In this document: positions 22,225-37,557 of the stretch, piece after piece
How positions within the stretch are numbered: the first letter of the stretch is position 1
Layout: every line of letters begins with the position of its first letter
DNA from: Symbiobacterium thermophilum
GTDB lineage: Bacteria; Bacillota; Sulfobacillia; DYFQ01
Direction of reading: 5' to 3'
Length of the DNA: 64,000 bases
Assembly: GCA_020725105.1 (NCBI GenBank)
Contig: DYFQ01000001.1
Span: forward strand, 88,069-152,068
Notes under the pieces: model-generated
Database searches by the model: none
What the model was told of the DNA's origin: nothing
The model's input: only the letters and a program-made list of their open reading frames with translations
Position numbers and translations under genes: made by a program

Positions 22225-23669
22225 TATGGCAGGGCTCCTTCCCGGGGCCGGCGCGGAGGCGCTTCCACCCGGGCGAAGCGGTCGAGTAGCCGGATGACGT
22301 GCTCGACGCCGAGGTGGTAGTCCTCGACCCGGCAGTGCTCGTTGGGCGCGTGAACCAGCGAGCCGTGGTAGCCGATGCCGGCCCCTGAAACGGTGGGTAG
22401 TCCCAGGTCCCGGTTGAACAGGTACATCGGCCCGGTACCCGCCATCCGGGGCCTGATCACCGGTTCGGTCCGGTAGGTTTCGCGGGCGGACTCGGCCACT
22501 ACCTCGATGAGGGGATCGTCGGCCGGGGTCTGCCCCGGGTCCTCCGGCCCGAGCAGCCGGATCTCGATATCGCCGAAGCCGCGCCGCGCCAGGTGCCGGC
22601 GGAGCTTTTCCAGCACGTCCCCGGCCCGCTGGTCCGGCACAAGGCGGAAGTCCAGTTTGGCCCGGGCTGCTCTGGGGAGCACCGTCTTGGAGCCCGGTCC
22701 GGTGTATCCCGACACCAGGCCGCAGATGGTGCAGGTGGGCTCGTAGAAGAGCTTCAGCGCCAGGTCCAGACCGGTGAGCCCGCCGATGAACCTGGAGATG
22801 CCCCAGTGGCGCAGCATCTCCGCCTCTTCCAGGGGGTAACGACGGAGAAGGTCCAGTTCCCGCTCGGTCGGTGGGCGGACGTCGTCGTAGAACCCGTCAA
22901 TCAGACACCGGTCGGTGCGCAGGTCCTTCAGGTTGTTCAGGGCCGCCACCAGGCGCCAGGCGGGGTTCTCGACGATGGCGGCCTGGCTGGAGTGGAGGTC
23001 CTGGTTGGCGCCGCGGGCCACCAGTTCCACGTAGAGGATGCCTTTGCAGCCGAAGCTGATGACTGGCCGGCCCCGGGCGTCCCGGCTCCCGGACTCCCAG
23101 ACCACTCCCCGGGCGTCCCGCAGCCGGCCACCGTGGTGGTGGACGAAGTCGTGCAGGTGGACGCTGCCGATCTCTTCCTCGCCCTCCACCACCAGCTTCA
23201 CGTTGACCGGCAGCCGTCCCTCGCCTTCCAGCCAGGCCTGGATCGCCTTCAACCGGGCCACCAGGTTGCCCTTGTTGTCGGCCACCCCGCGGGCGTAGAT
23301 CATCCCGTCGCGCACGGCGGCGCTGAAGGGGTCGGACTCCCACTCGTCAAGGGGCTCGGGGGGCTGGACGTCGTAGTGGTTGTAAAAGGCCAGGGTCCGG
23401 GCGGCGCCCGCGTCCAGTTCCCCGTATACCACCGGGTGGCCGCCGGCCAGCGGGACGACCTCGGCTTTGAGCCCGACCTCCTCCATCATGGCCGCCACCA
23501 GCCGGGCGCAGTCCTCCATGCCAAGGTCCTGGGCGGCGACGCTGGGCTGGCGCAAGAGCCGCCTGAGGTCCTCCAGGTTCTGTTCCCGGTGCTCCCGGGC
23601 GTAGGCCAGGGCTCGCTCCACGGCCGGACCCTCTCCTTTTCCCGACGAAGTGGGTGCGTTCAACGTCAT
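22224..23669 (-). CDS. M20-family dipeptidase/deacylase
   Basis: FYNHYDVQPPEPLDEWESDPFSA, EGEEEIGSVHLHDFV. Confidence 0.92.
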   Translation of the reverse strand: MTLNAPTSSGKGEGPAVERALAYAREHREQNLEDLRRLLRQPSVAAQDLGMEDCARLVAAMMEEVGLKAEVVPLAGGHPVVYGELDAGAARTLAFYNHYDVQPPEPLDEWESDPFSAAVRDGMIYARGVADNKGNLVARLKAIQAWLEGEGRLPVNVKLVVEGEEEIGSVHLHDFVHHHGGRLRDARGVVWESGSRDARGRPVISFGCKGILYVELVARGANQDLHSSQAAIVENPAWRLVAALNNLKDLRTDRCLIDGFYDDVRPPTERELDLLRRYPLEEAEMLRHWGISRFIGGLTGLDLALKLFYEPTCTICGLVSGYTGPGSKTVLPRAARAKLDFRLVPDQRAGDVLEKLRRHLARRGFGDIEIRLLGPEDPGQTPADDPLIEVVAESARETYRTEPVIRPRMAGTGPMYLFNRDLGLPTVSGAGIGYHGSLVHAPNEHCRVEDYHLGVEHVIRLLDRFARVEAPPRRPREGALP

Positions 23670-23766
23670 GGCTTCGCCCTCCGGGGCCCGGGGGCCTGCA
23701 TCTCGGGCGGGTGCCGGCAGGCGCCGCGTCTCCGCCCGTCGAACCCGCCCACGTGGAGGTGGCGCC

Positions 23767-24222
23767 GTGGAGCCGGAACGGGCTGGAAGCCCCGACCGCG
23801 CCGTGGAACAGGCCAGGGAGTTCGCCCGGCTGGTCGGGGTCATCCAGCGGCAGGCTATCGCCCGGTGCGGGGTGACTCCGGGGCAGTGCTTCGTCCTGGG
23901 AGAGATCGGGCGGTCGGGGCCGCTGAACCTCAAGCGCCTGGCTTACAACCTGGGGCTTGATCCGGGGTGGGTGAGCCGGGCGGTGGAGCGACTGGTCCGG
24001 GCCGGCCTCATCCACCGCCAGGCAAACCCCGCCGACCGCCGGGAGGTCCGCCTGCAGTTGACGGCGGCCGGCGAGGCGGCCAACGGGCGGACCCAGACCT
24101 TGCTGAACGCCCAGATGGCACGGATCCTCGCCGCGGCACCGCCCGCCTACCGGGGCGCCCTGGCCGAGGTCTTTGCCGCACTGGTGAGGGAGTGCCGCCA
24201 GGTCCGGGCGGAACTCCAGTAG
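23767..24222 (+). CDS. MarR-family transcriptional regulator
   Basis: wHTH: LNLKRLAYNLGLDPGWVSRAVERLVRAGLIHRQANPADRREVRLQLT; GTG start with GGAGGTGG RBS. Confidence 0.85.
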   Translation: MEPERAGSPDRAVEQAREFARLVGVIQRQAIARCGVTPGQCFVLGEIGRSGPLNLKRLAYNLGLDPGWVSRAVERLVRAGLIHRQANPADRREVRLQLTAAGEAANGRTQTLLNAQMARILAAAPPAYRGALAEVFAALVRECRQVRAELQ

Positions 24223-25340
24223 CCCTCGGCCACCAGGGCGCCGGCTCCCAACCAGGCCAGGCCGCCCGCGATCCCGAACAGGCCACCGAAGCCGGCCCGA
24301 CCCAGGACGGCGCCCAGCAGCCAGGACCCGGGGCCGATGCCGAGGTCGAACGCCAGGTAGAAGGCACCCACTCCCCGGCCCCGGGCGCCGGCGGGCACCC
24401 GGTCCATGGCCAGGGCGATGAGGCCCGGGTGGGCCAGCCCGCAGCCCCAGCCAAACGCGGTCACCGCCACCAGCAGCCACGCCCGGGACGGCGCCAGGCC
24501 CATCCCCAGGAGCGAAAACCCCAGCCCCGCCAGGACGGGTGCCAGCACGTACCGCCGGTCACGCCGGTCCAGCAGCCAGCCGCCGGTAACCCTGGCCAGG
24601 ATGATGGCGGCCGCGTACGCCGTGAACAGGGGGCCGGCGTCGCCGAAGCCTCGCGCCGGGCTCAGCAGGCTCAGGAAGTTGAAGAACGCGCCGAAGCCCG
24701 CGCCAAAGACGAGCGAGACCAGAGCCGGCACCGCGAGTCCGCGCGCCCACGGCCGGACCCCGCCGGCGGTACCGGCGGGCGCTTCAGCGACCTGCCGGCG
24801 ACCTGGCCTGGTCACGGCCAGCAGGGGCAGGGTCAGTAGTGCCAGTCCCGCTGCCAGCCAGAAGGCGAAGCCAGGGGAGCTCCACCCCATCACGTGCTGC
24901 CCGGCAAGGGGGGCGAACCCCATGGCCACGTTGGCCGCCATCCCGTAGTGGGCCATGGCGCGGCCCCGCAGGGTTTCAGGGGCCAGTTGCGCCGCCAGCA
25001 CCGTGCCGGCGGTGGTGAAAGCGGCGTAGGCGACCCCGTGCAGAGCGCGGGCAAGCCAGAGGGCGGCCACCCCGTGCAGCCGGCCCAGCGCCGCCGAGCC
25101 CAGGGCAAGCAACAGGCCGCCCGCCACCGCCACCGCCACCGGCCGGACCCTGTCGGTGGCGAGGGCGGCCAGGGGGCGGGCCACGATGGCGGCCGTGGCG
25201 AACGCACCGAGCACGGCGCCAAGCTGGGTAGGGGACAGGCCAAGGGCGGCCAGGTGTCTGGGCAGCGGTACCAGCAGGCTATAGAAGGCAGAGAAGAAGG
25301 AGACGGTGGCCAGCCACAAGAGGAGGAACCGGAAGGTCAC
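24147..25340 (-). CDS. MFS transporter
   Basis: 12-TM-like MFS sequence (LGAVLGAFATAAIVARPLAALATDRVRPV). Confidence 0.9.
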   Translation of the reverse strand: MTFRFLLLWLATVSFFSAFYSLLVPLPRHLAALGLSPTQLGAVLGAFATAAIVARPLAALATDRVRPVAVAVAGGLLLALGSAALGRLHGVAALWLARALHGVAYAAFTTAGTVLAAQLAPETLRGRAMAHYGMAANVAMGFAPLAGQHVMGWSSPGFAFWLAAGLALLTLPLLAVTRPGRRQVAEAPAGTAGGVRPWARGLAVPALVSLVFGAGFGAFFNFLSLLSPARGFGDAGPLFTAYAAAIILARVTGGWLLDRRDRRYVLAPVLAGLGFSLLGMGLAPSRAWLLVAVTAFGWGCGLAHPGLIALAMDRVPAGARGRGVGAFYLAFDLGIGPGSWLLGAVLGRAGFGGLFGIAGGLAWLGAGALVAEGYWSSARTWRHSLTSAAKTSARAPR

Positions 25341-25344
25341 CGGC

Positions 25345-25776
25345 CTAGAGGTCGCGCCGCATGACGGTGGCCGTCTGCGGGCAGGCGCCCTGGAACTCGG
25401 CGGAGACCACCACCGGCCCGGTCACGGCACGGCGGTCCACGGTGGAGAAGCCGAAGCGGGGGAAGTAATCGGGAGCGGTGGTGGTCAGCAGATAGACCTC
25501 GCGGGCCCCGGCGGCGGCCGCCCGGGCCAGGCAGGCTTCCACCAGCCGGCGGCCGACGCCCTGCCGCCTGGCTGTGTCGGCCACGGCCAGCGAGCGCAGC
25601 AGAGCCTGTTCACCGTACAGTTCCAGCCCCACGACCCCGACGATGACTCCATCCGGTGACCGGGCCACCAGGAACCGCCGGAAGTGCTCCTCGACCCCAT
25701 CGAGTGGCAGGCCGCAGGCGGACAGCAGTTCCCTCACGGTGTTCAGGTCGACCGGTTGCACAGGTTCTACGGTCAT
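25345..25776 (-). CDS. GNAT-family N-acetyltransferase (ArsN2/YjgM-like)
   Basis: LRSLAVADTARRQGVGRRLVEACLARAAAAGAREVYLLTTTAPDYFPRFGF. Confidence 0.9.
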   Translation of the reverse strand: MTVEPVQPVDLNTVRELLSACGLPLDGVEEHFRRFLVARSPDGVIVGVVGLELYGEQALLRSLAVADTARRQGVGRRLVEACLARAAAAGAREVYLLTTTAPDYFPRFGFSTVDRRAVTGPVVVSAEFQGACPQTATVMRRDL

Positions 25777-25894
25777 CGCCGGCTCACCCGTTCCCCGTAG
25801 CGGCTGATCCTTACTCCTCGGCGACGGCTCATCCGCTCTTCCAGCGCCAGCTCAATGTTAGCACCAATAGTTGCGATTGACAAGGACTTGGTGG

Positions 25895-25930
25895 GAAAAA
25901 ACAACCCGGCGCCTTCGCGCCGGGCGTTTT
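25895..25930 (-). terminator. Intrinsic terminator (U-run on minus strand; possibly bidirectional)
   Basis: Minus: CCCGGCGCGAAGGCGCCGGG followed by TTGTTTTTT. Confidence 0.75.
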
Positions 25931-25950
25931 CGGCCAACCCGCCATGGCCT

Positions 25951-26022
25951 CCGGCAGTGAGCTTGCCTCCGGGCGCGGCGGCCTGCTGGGCAACTGAGAA
26001 AACTTCTCAATCTCACTGCCGG
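25951..26022 (-). ncRNA. Candidate structured RNA: three-way junction immediately upstream of a terminator
   Basis: 11-bp P1 (CCGGCAGTGAG/CTCACTGCCGG), hairpin TGAGAA-GTT-TTCTCA, and TTGCC...GGCAA helix on the minus strand. Confidence 0.5.
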
Positions 26023-26076
26023 ATTTCACGGTATCAGTCCCCGCGGGCCCTGTCAAGACCTTTACGCAACTTTTAG

Positions 26077-26406
26077 CTACGAATTCACGACAATATCCGT
26101 TCGCGGCGATGCGGCAGAGGCTGACCCACCGGAAACCAGCGGGTGGATGTTCACCTGATCGCCCGCCGCCAGCCGGCGCTCCCAGGGGGCCATGGTTCCG
26201 TTTACCACCACCATGACCGCCCGGTCCCAGGCGGGGTTGAGCGCCCGCACCAGTTCTTCAACGGTCGTCCCCTCGACTACCTGGTAGGTCGTCTCGCCGG
26301 GGGTAACGGCCGCGCGGGGCCCGGTCCCCAGGGCGGCCAGCGCCCGGCTGAGGTTGAGCCGGATGGTCACCGGCGACCGGTCCACCGGTGCTCGGCCCCT
26401 TTCCAC
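26077..26406 (-). CDS. MoaD/ThiS-like beta-grasp protein with tail after GG
   Basis: VMVVVNGTMAPWERRLAAGDQVNIHPLVSGG followed by SASAASPRTDIVVNS; 6 nt downstream of AOR paralogue. Confidence 0.85.
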   Translation of the reverse strand: MERGRAPVDRSPVTIRLNLSRALAALGTGPRAAVTPGETTYQVVEGTTVEELVRALNPAWDRAVMVVVNGTMAPWERRLAAGDQVNIHPLVSGGSASAASPRTDIVVNS

Positions 26407-26412
26407 CGGCGT

Positions 26413-28182
26413 TCACTTCCCCGCGCCGCGCGCGCCGGCCCCCGCCCGGTCGCGCTTCACCAGGGCGGCCCAGCCTTTCGTCACCTGGTCCAGTTCGTCG
26501 TCGGGCACGTCGAACACCAGCCCGTGGGGCGGCAGGGGCTCTTCCCGGAAGACCCGGGGCAAGCGGTCGTAGACCTCCGTGAGTCCGGCCCGGCGGTTGA
26601 ACTCGACCTCCCGGGCCAGCACCTCCCGGGCCTGGCGGAACAGGTCTTCCACGGTCACGCTGGTGCCCAGCCTGCCGTTGACCAGGTCCGCCAGGATCTC
26701 CAGGTTGTCCTTGACGGCGTTGTGGGCGAACACGCAGAGGCCCAGGCTGTCAAAGACCATGCAGTACTGCTGCATCTTGACGGAGGCCTCCCGCTGGCCT
26801 TCCGGCTTGTGGTGCTCCACGGCTTCCCGCATCGTCTGGCCGGCGGTGTGGTCGGCCCCCATGGCCGAGGTGGCGTAGGTCACGCCGAGCCCCTTGACGG
26901 CCCGCGGGTCGTAGGCGGAGATGGCCTGCCCCTTGACGGCGGGAACCCGCTTCACGCCGAGCACCCGGCCGGTGAGGGCCGCGCCGTGGCCCAGCAGCCG
27001 CCCCAGCACGGTACCCTGGAGAATCTCGCGGATCAGGCGCCGGGCGGCTTCGGCGTCGCCGAACTCCGCCAGCCCCGCTTCCATGGCGACACCCAGCGTG
27101 GCGCCGATCTCGATGGTGTCCAGGCCGCCCTCGTTGCACAGGCGGTTGATCCGGGCGATGTCGTCCAGGTCGCCGATGCCCAGGTTCGAGCCGCACAGGC
27201 CGATGGTCTCGTACTCCAGGGAGCGGACGATCTCGTTGCCGCACCGGTCGACGTAGACGTTGGAGGACCTGATGACGCAGCCGGGCATGCAGGGGTGGCT
27301 CGGGTCGCCGCCCCGTTTCAGGATGGTCTCGCGGAGGGCGGTAGCGTTTATCGCCTCGGCCCGGTCGAAGCTTCCCGAGGCGAAGTTGCAGGTGGGCAGG
27401 CCGCCCAGGTTGTTGACGACGTCCACCATGGCCGCCGTGCCGAACCTGGGGTAGGTCTCGGCCGTGGCGGGGGTGGTCCGCAGGTTGGATACGTACCGCT
27501 TCCGTCCGGCATGGTAGCGCTCCCGGTCGGCGAAGTCCACGCGCCGGCGGGAACCGGGGTCCACGATGAGGGCCTTCAGCCCCTTGGACCCCATGACCGC
27601 GCCCAGCCCGCCCCGGGCGGTGATGCGGGCCGGGACACCGTCCTTGTCGGTGTGCATGGCGCCGGCCGCGGGGAGCCGCATCTCCCCGGGGGTGCCGATC
27701 ACGGCGAAGGCGCAGTGGGCGCCGTGGGCCTCGTGGATCAGGGCGCCCGCCTCGTAGGTGGACTTGCCCCACCAGGCGCCGGCGTCGGCGATCTCCGCCG
27801 CCGGGCGGCCGCCGGGCCCCTCGAAGACCCTGACCGCCACCCGCCGGCCCTCGGGAGCCGCTCCCTCGACGACGACGGCCTTCACACCCAGCAGGGAGAG
27901 CTGATAGCCGACGGTGCCTCCGGCGTTGGACTCCTTGATCCCGCCCGTAAGCGGGCTCCTGGCGCCGAAGGACACCCGGTGGTTGGACGAGGCCGGCCCG
28001 CCGGACAAGAGCCCCGGGGCCACCACCAGCTTGTTGTCGGGTCCCAGCGGGTCGCAGGTGGGGTCGACCTCTTCGAAGACCAGGGTAGAGGTGAGCGCCC
28101 GGCCGCCCAGGAGGCGGTACCGCGTGGGGGCCTCCTGCGCCTTGACCGTCCCGGTTGAAAGGTTGACCCGTATGAATGTCAA
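26413..28182 (-). CDS. Aldehyde:ferredoxin oxidoreductase family protein (second paralogue)
   Basis: GGRALTSTLVFEEVDPTCDPLGPDNKLVVAPG, GARSPLTGGIKESNAGGTVGYQL; TTG start at 28182 preceded by GGAGGA. Confidence 0.93.
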   Translation of the reverse strand: MTFIRVNLSTGTVKAQEAPTRYRLLGGRALTSTLVFEEVDPTCDPLGPDNKLVVAPGLLSGGPASSNHRVSFGARSPLTGGIKESNAGGTVGYQLSLLGVKAVVVEGAAPEGRRVAVRVFEGPGGRPAAEIADAGAWWGKSTYEAGALIHEAHGAHCAFAVIGTPGEMRLPAAGAMHTDKDGVPARITARGGLGAVMGSKGLKALIVDPGSRRRVDFADRERYHAGRKRYVSNLRTTPATAETYPRFGTAAMVDVVNNLGGLPTCNFASGSFDRAEAINATALRETILKRGGDPSHPCMPGCVIRSSNVYVDRCGNEIVRSLEYETIGLCGSNLGIGDLDDIARINRLCNEGGLDTIEIGATLGVAMEAGLAEFGDAEAARRLIREILQGTVLGRLLGHGAALTGRVLGVKRVPAVKGQAISAYDPRAVKGLGVTYATSAMGADHTAGQTMREAVEHHKPEGQREASVKMQQYCMVFDSLGLCVFAHNAVKDNLEILADLVNGRLGTSVTVEDLFRQAREVLAREVEFNRRAGLTEVYDRLPRVFREEPLPPHGLVFDVPDDELDQVTKGWAALVKRDRAGAGARGAGK

Positions 28183-28455
28183 TGCGGCTCCTCCTCCACG
28201 CTGAAAGGGCCAGTAGCTCCGTCGAAGCATGGAGTTCCGGCCGTCGGCGGGGATTCCCTCCCGTCCGGGCCCGCCGCGCGGGCCCGGAGCTTGTGGCGTC
28301 CCAGCCCGCGACGTCCCAGCCACATTGTGTTATGCGCCCGCGGGCGGGGACAGGGAGGGGGGGCCCCTCCGGTTACGAATGCTCTGAGATGGGCGCTTGA
28401 CCGGGCGTCCTCAGCGGAAGGACTGAAGGGGCTTTCGTGACGGGACGGTCGCACC

Positions 28456-37288: not shown

Positions 37289-37409
37289 CGCCTCTCCCTC
37301 CCCTGCGGGGCCGGCCGGAAACCTGACCACGCAGCCCGGTTCCCGGCCGGCCCGGCTCCAGGAACCTGGTCCCATTCTATGCCTGGCGTGTCAGAAGCTC
37401 AACAGTGTA

Positions 37410-37477
37410 TGTAAGGTTTTCTAACCCCAAGGCCGAGTCTGTGTCATTTAGCCGGTGCCCAGGGCCAAAACCTTACA
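37410..37477. promoter_or_regulatory. Inverted repeat between divergent glnA and M20 gene; GlnR/TnrA-like operator candidate
   Basis: TGTAAGGTTTTCTAACC at 37410 and inverted copy AAAACCTTACA at 37467-37477. Confidence 0.55.
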
Positions 37478-37557
37478 TTTCGTGTCCGAGGTCCGCCGGA
37501 AGAGGACACCCGCCCCGCGCCGGGAGAAAATGTGGGGCGGGGGAGGTGGAGCCGGTA

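Follow-up and report, generated by a model that had tools for sequence, protein, structure and literature searches.

Does the structured element on the minus strand between the AOR-MoaD and arsN2-MFS operons of Symbiobacterium thermophilum serve one of these operons, or is it a transcription unit of its own? We examined it within a window of 64,000 nt, the whole stretch of DNA analysed, to which the coordinates refer (Table 1). The original prediction had described an unassigned three-way-junction RNA with a terminator. All of the minus-strand stretches it named were present on reading the sequence, and the perfect P1, given there as 11 pairs, is in fact one pair longer. As set out below, we favour with moderate confidence a stand-alone, orphan and lineage-specific sRNA gene.

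Table 1. Parts of the minus-strand element and adjoining genes, with positions in the 64,000-nt window.
Feature	Position	Strand	Remarks
-35 hexamer TTGACA of the predicted sRNA promoter	26051-26056	-	-35 to -10 matches the genome at G000:C33:114096-114124, minus strand
-10 hexamer TACCGT	26028-26033	-	spacer 17 nt; TG one base upstream (extended -10 type)
P1-enclosed domain	25950-26023	-	12-bp P1, 26023-26012 with 25961-25950; arms CCGGCAGTGAG / CTCACTGCCGG plus one further T-A pair (T26023-A25950)
P2 hairpin TGAGAA-GTT-TTCTCA	25995-26009	-	8 bp in the minimum-energy fold; abuts P1
Third arm (uncertain)	25963-25993	-	either TTGCC (25993-25989) paired with GGCAA (25967-25963) around a C/G-rich loop of 21 nt or, in the minimum-energy fold, a pair of short hairpins
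Small hairpin GGCCA...UGGCC	25932-25949	-	between P1 and the terminator
Intrinsic terminator	25896-25925	-	stem-loop CCCGGCGC-GAAG-GCGCCGGG (25925-25904), then T tract TTGTTTTTT to about 25896
Second promoter-like site TTGTCA-17-TAACAT	25855-25883	-	3' of the terminator, toward arsN2
GNAT acetyltransferase gene	25345-25776	-	downstream; ArsN2 by NCBIfam (155 bits, cut-off 125)
MFS transporter gene	24147-25340	-	downstream
ThiS/MoaD-like protein gene	26077-26406	-	upstream
Aldehyde ferredoxin oxidoreductase (AFOR) gene	26413-28323	-	upstream
MarR-type gene	23650-24222	+	just past the MFS gene

The sequence TTGACA-17 nt-TACCGT, which the original prediction had overlooked, lies 20 bases past the MoaD stop codon. 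Since the genome (2.74 Mb) contains the pattern TTGACA, 16-18 nt, TANNNT 72 times and its reversed control 2 times (36-fold), a chance match here is very unlikely and the site is very probably a genuine promoter signal. The RNA is predicted to start at the 5' end of P1 or slightly inside it, among the first bases of the 5' arm; as the start may lie a few nucleotides inside this arm, the outermost pairs of P1 may go untranscribed. Judged by its sequence, the element thus possesses its own promoter and its own intrinsic terminator, two of the features expected of a stand-alone sRNA gene, and this promoter lends support to the earlier suggestion that it could be an independent sRNA.

The loci with this promoter pattern were also surveyed together with Rfam, and as a positive control the SAM riboswitch, the c-di-AMP riboswitch and two tRNAs of the genome were recovered. 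Among the fetched loci, the 123 nt from promoter to terminator of the element is the shortest distance that ends in a strong T tract. One locus (L087) has its terminator nearer, at 113 nt, but this has a weak T tract and the locus contains a tRNA. The leaders of the SAM and c-di-AMP riboswitches are longer, measuring 209 and 308 nt from promoter to terminator.

The element folds far more stably than expected from its composition, with a minimum free energy of -73.4 kcal/mol as compared with -52.6 +/- 3.7 kcal/mol in 200 dinucleotide shuffles (z = -5.6; none of the 200 as good). The predicted three-way junction held in part: P1 and P2 are stable and robust across the ensemble, whereas the third stem, TTGCC/GGCAA, is absent from the minimum-energy fold. 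There, P1 is kept, the P2 hairpin joins it without a linker and the third arm is made up of two smaller hairpins. The third arm is therefore ambiguous between these two forms. It should be noted that P1 by itself is not exceptional, because there are 13 inverted repeats in the window that are perfect over 11 bp or more and enclose loops of 20-70 nt (about 2.9 in shuffles); a perfect P1 with short linkers, regarded in the original prediction as typical of ligand-binding junctions, is not specific to them. What does exceed chance is a consensus promoter and a terminator combined with a P1 that lies where the RNA is predicted to start.

No Rfam family matched at the gathering level in the entire window, which agrees with the earlier description of an unassigned structured RNA with a terminator. 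Below this level, only chance matches were seen near the element, the best having 15.9 bits (E = 1.9) on the opposite strand. A covariance model built from the single sequence of the element was run against two sets of genomes, 154 from the class and 399 from across the phylum. It recovered only the element itself and one chance match (L043), which was weak (27.5 bits) and lay inside an MFS-like reading frame; a conserved aptamer core common to several leaders was not found among these matches. BLASTN of the element against 61 genomes gave short partial matches, and those inspected (e.g., L003 and L004) resemble GC-rich coding sequence and have no other part of the element in common. A match of the P1 arms to a viral contig (L052) likewise shared nothing else with the element, and matches to plasmids extended over no more than 24% of the query and had E values of 0.05 or worse.

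Homologues with compensatory changes, proposed earlier as a check, were thus missing from the 154 class and 399 phylum genomes. Without a homologue, compensatory changes cannot be counted and selection on the structure cannot be demonstrated, so that the junction is a predicted one and any ligand hypothetical. As the relatives searched all lie outside the genus, family and order of this bacterium, the missing homologues may reflect sampling; they refute only a conserved class and not an RNA of this lineage. We conclude that a genome-specific non-coding RNA is probably real.

Several other identities were considered for the element and rejected. It matches neither 6S RNA (RF00013) nor the SRP RNA (RF00169), and since a genuine 6S RNA and a small SRP RNA score above the family cut-offs elsewhere in the genome (contigs C63 and C22), a hidden copy of one or the other can be dismissed. 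The hammerhead-like motifs CTGAT...GAAA by the 5' end have no stem between them. A 75-codon frame runs through the element, but its TTG start falls within the -35 box and no ribosome site lies at a useful distance. Two short matches in the genome, considered as antisense targets, are both within coding genes.

The genes on either side bear on whether the element acts as a leader. The arsN1 and arsN2 clades of arsenic operons have been named previously (PMC6465285), and the arsN2-MFS pair is likely an arsenical-resistance operon. From the terminator to the arsN2 start codon there are about 120 nt, within which the second promoter-like site is located. A MarR-type gene lies no more than 1.5 kb away in about half of the 29 fetched arsN2 orthologues of the class, and the one found here is likely the arsN2 regulator. 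With MarR genes near arsN2 both here and in the class, a protein regulator would be the more economical control of arsN2. Meanwhile, the spacer of the arsN2 promoter-like site contains CAAT-N7-ATTG, a possible operator. A 19-codon frame, MSRRRGVRISRYGERVSRR (25773-25832, minus strand), was also seen 3' of this site; its terminal ATGA overlaps the arsN2 start, and it is possibly a translationally coupled leader peptide.

It is improbable that the element is a riboswitch leader belonging to an undescribed class, in which a ligand bound at the P1-closed junction would decide read-through of the terminator into arsN2-MFS. The order of the parts (promoter, structured domain, terminator, gene) is indeed that of the SAM and c-di-AMP riboswitches of the genome, and the 3' arm of P1 can pair with the 5' arm of the terminator (6 bp, -11.4 kcal/mol). 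However, 17% of shuffles pair as well, and this weak energy test gives the same 17% for the SAM riboswitch control; when P1 was blocked in constrained folding, the terminator still formed in the element and likewise in the control. Because the real SAM riboswitch of the same genome behaves alike, the antiterminator tests do not discriminate. What weighs against the leader is that arsN2 has its own promoter-like site past the terminator, although read-through into arsN2 may still take place, that none of the 29 arsN2 orthologues, many of them adjoining a MarR regulator, has a significant match to the element model alongside, and that homologues are missing from the class and phylum genomes. The earlier term "riboswitch-like" consequently finds no backing, there being no homologues whose covariation could reveal a conserved aptamer core, and, in view of the same promoter-like site and orthologues, neither does the proposed control of the two downstream genes. 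A broader possibility is an undescribed, lineage-restricted structured RNA, possibly ligand-binding, with relatives in as yet unsampled members of its family or order, which would control arsN2-MFS or act in trans; we regard this as quite improbable.

One objection to an sRNA gene is that the same anatomy could equal an operon-end terminator with a chance stem, given the frequency of such perfect repeats in the window (13 with arms of 11 bp or more). The element would then amount to no more than the 3' end of AOR-MoaD, with a terminator and a stabilising stem upstream of it and with no function of its own. It does begin about 50 nt past the MoaD stop codon on the same strand, and in a genome this GC-rich, perfect repeats of 11 bp turn up fairly often. 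This explanation is nevertheless rather unlikely: a consensus promoter is located between the MoaD stop codon and P1. Moreover, 29 related AFOR loci had no consensus promoter over the 900 nt that follow the AFOR gene and no significant match to the element model, and a terminator-like site followed AFOR in only 2 of them. Highly improbable is a mobile or palindromic repeat remnant, with the P1 arms as repeat ends and the RNA fold arising by chance. It draws on GGCAAGCTCNCTGCCGG, the P1 3' arm with 6 inner bases, which recurs without a mismatch at one other genomic place, upstream of dnaA in the presumed origin region; there it is part of a perfect hairpin flanked by DnaA-box-like sequences. 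Yet there are two copies only and the remaining sequence of the element is unique; similar hairpins are few in relatives and not clearly above the rate of control patterns, and none of the adjacent genes examined was recognised as encoding a transposase.

The hairpin upstream of dnaA, CCGGCAGGGAGC-GGCAA-GCTCCCTGCCGG (L051, 19425-19459; G000:C22:39424-39458), repeats the sequence of the P1 arm save for one compensated pair, the differing position being a T-A pair in one of the two and a G-C pair in the other. The link between the two may be due to chance or to a common palindromic origin. Elsewhere in the window, a perfect 12-bp inverted repeat, ATGTAAGGTTTT/AAAACCTTACAT (37409-37478; 46 nt between the arms), is unusually AT-rich for this GC-rich stretch and is possibly the end of a mobile element or another structured RNA.

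For the stand-alone sRNA gene, we infer the following course of events. A housekeeping-sigma promoter (26056-26028, minus strand) would drive the synthesis of an RNA of about 120-130 nt, whose first base would fall at the 5' arm of P1 or slightly within it. This transcript would fold into the P1-closed branched domain followed by the small hairpin, and its 3' end would be formed at the intrinsic terminator near 25896. The same terminator would also stop read-through from AOR-MoaD, and transcription of arsN2-MFS would restart at its own promoter. As a free sRNA, the molecule would most likely act by base pairing or protein binding, and because most of it is paired, this action would go through its few open segments, namely the third-arm loop and the UGGCGGG loop.

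If transcribed, the element is one more small RNA without a known family, from a bacterial lineage that has been little sampled, beside a likely arsenical-resistance operon. So long as no relatives are known, it falls short of defining a class, and its main use is as a clear target for RNA-seq and for metagenome searches in the same lineage.

Among known systems, 6S RNA (RF00013) and the small SRP RNA (RF00169) resemble the element as small stable non-coding RNAs. The S-box (SAM, RF00162; L105) and ydaO (c-di-AMP, RF00379; L139) leaders of the same genome have a like promoter pattern, a P1-closed multi-branched domain and a terminator; these leaders match Rfam, whereas the element has no recognised aptamer core and, unlike them, is followed by a gene with its own promoter-like site past the terminator. 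Generic intergenic sRNA genes, which have their own sigma-70 promoter and an intrinsic terminator, differ from the element in that it is without an Rfam family, a known homologue, a target or a chaperone and its transcript is a predicted one, but they share with it the promoter, the structured RNA of about 125 nt, the terminator and the location between operons.
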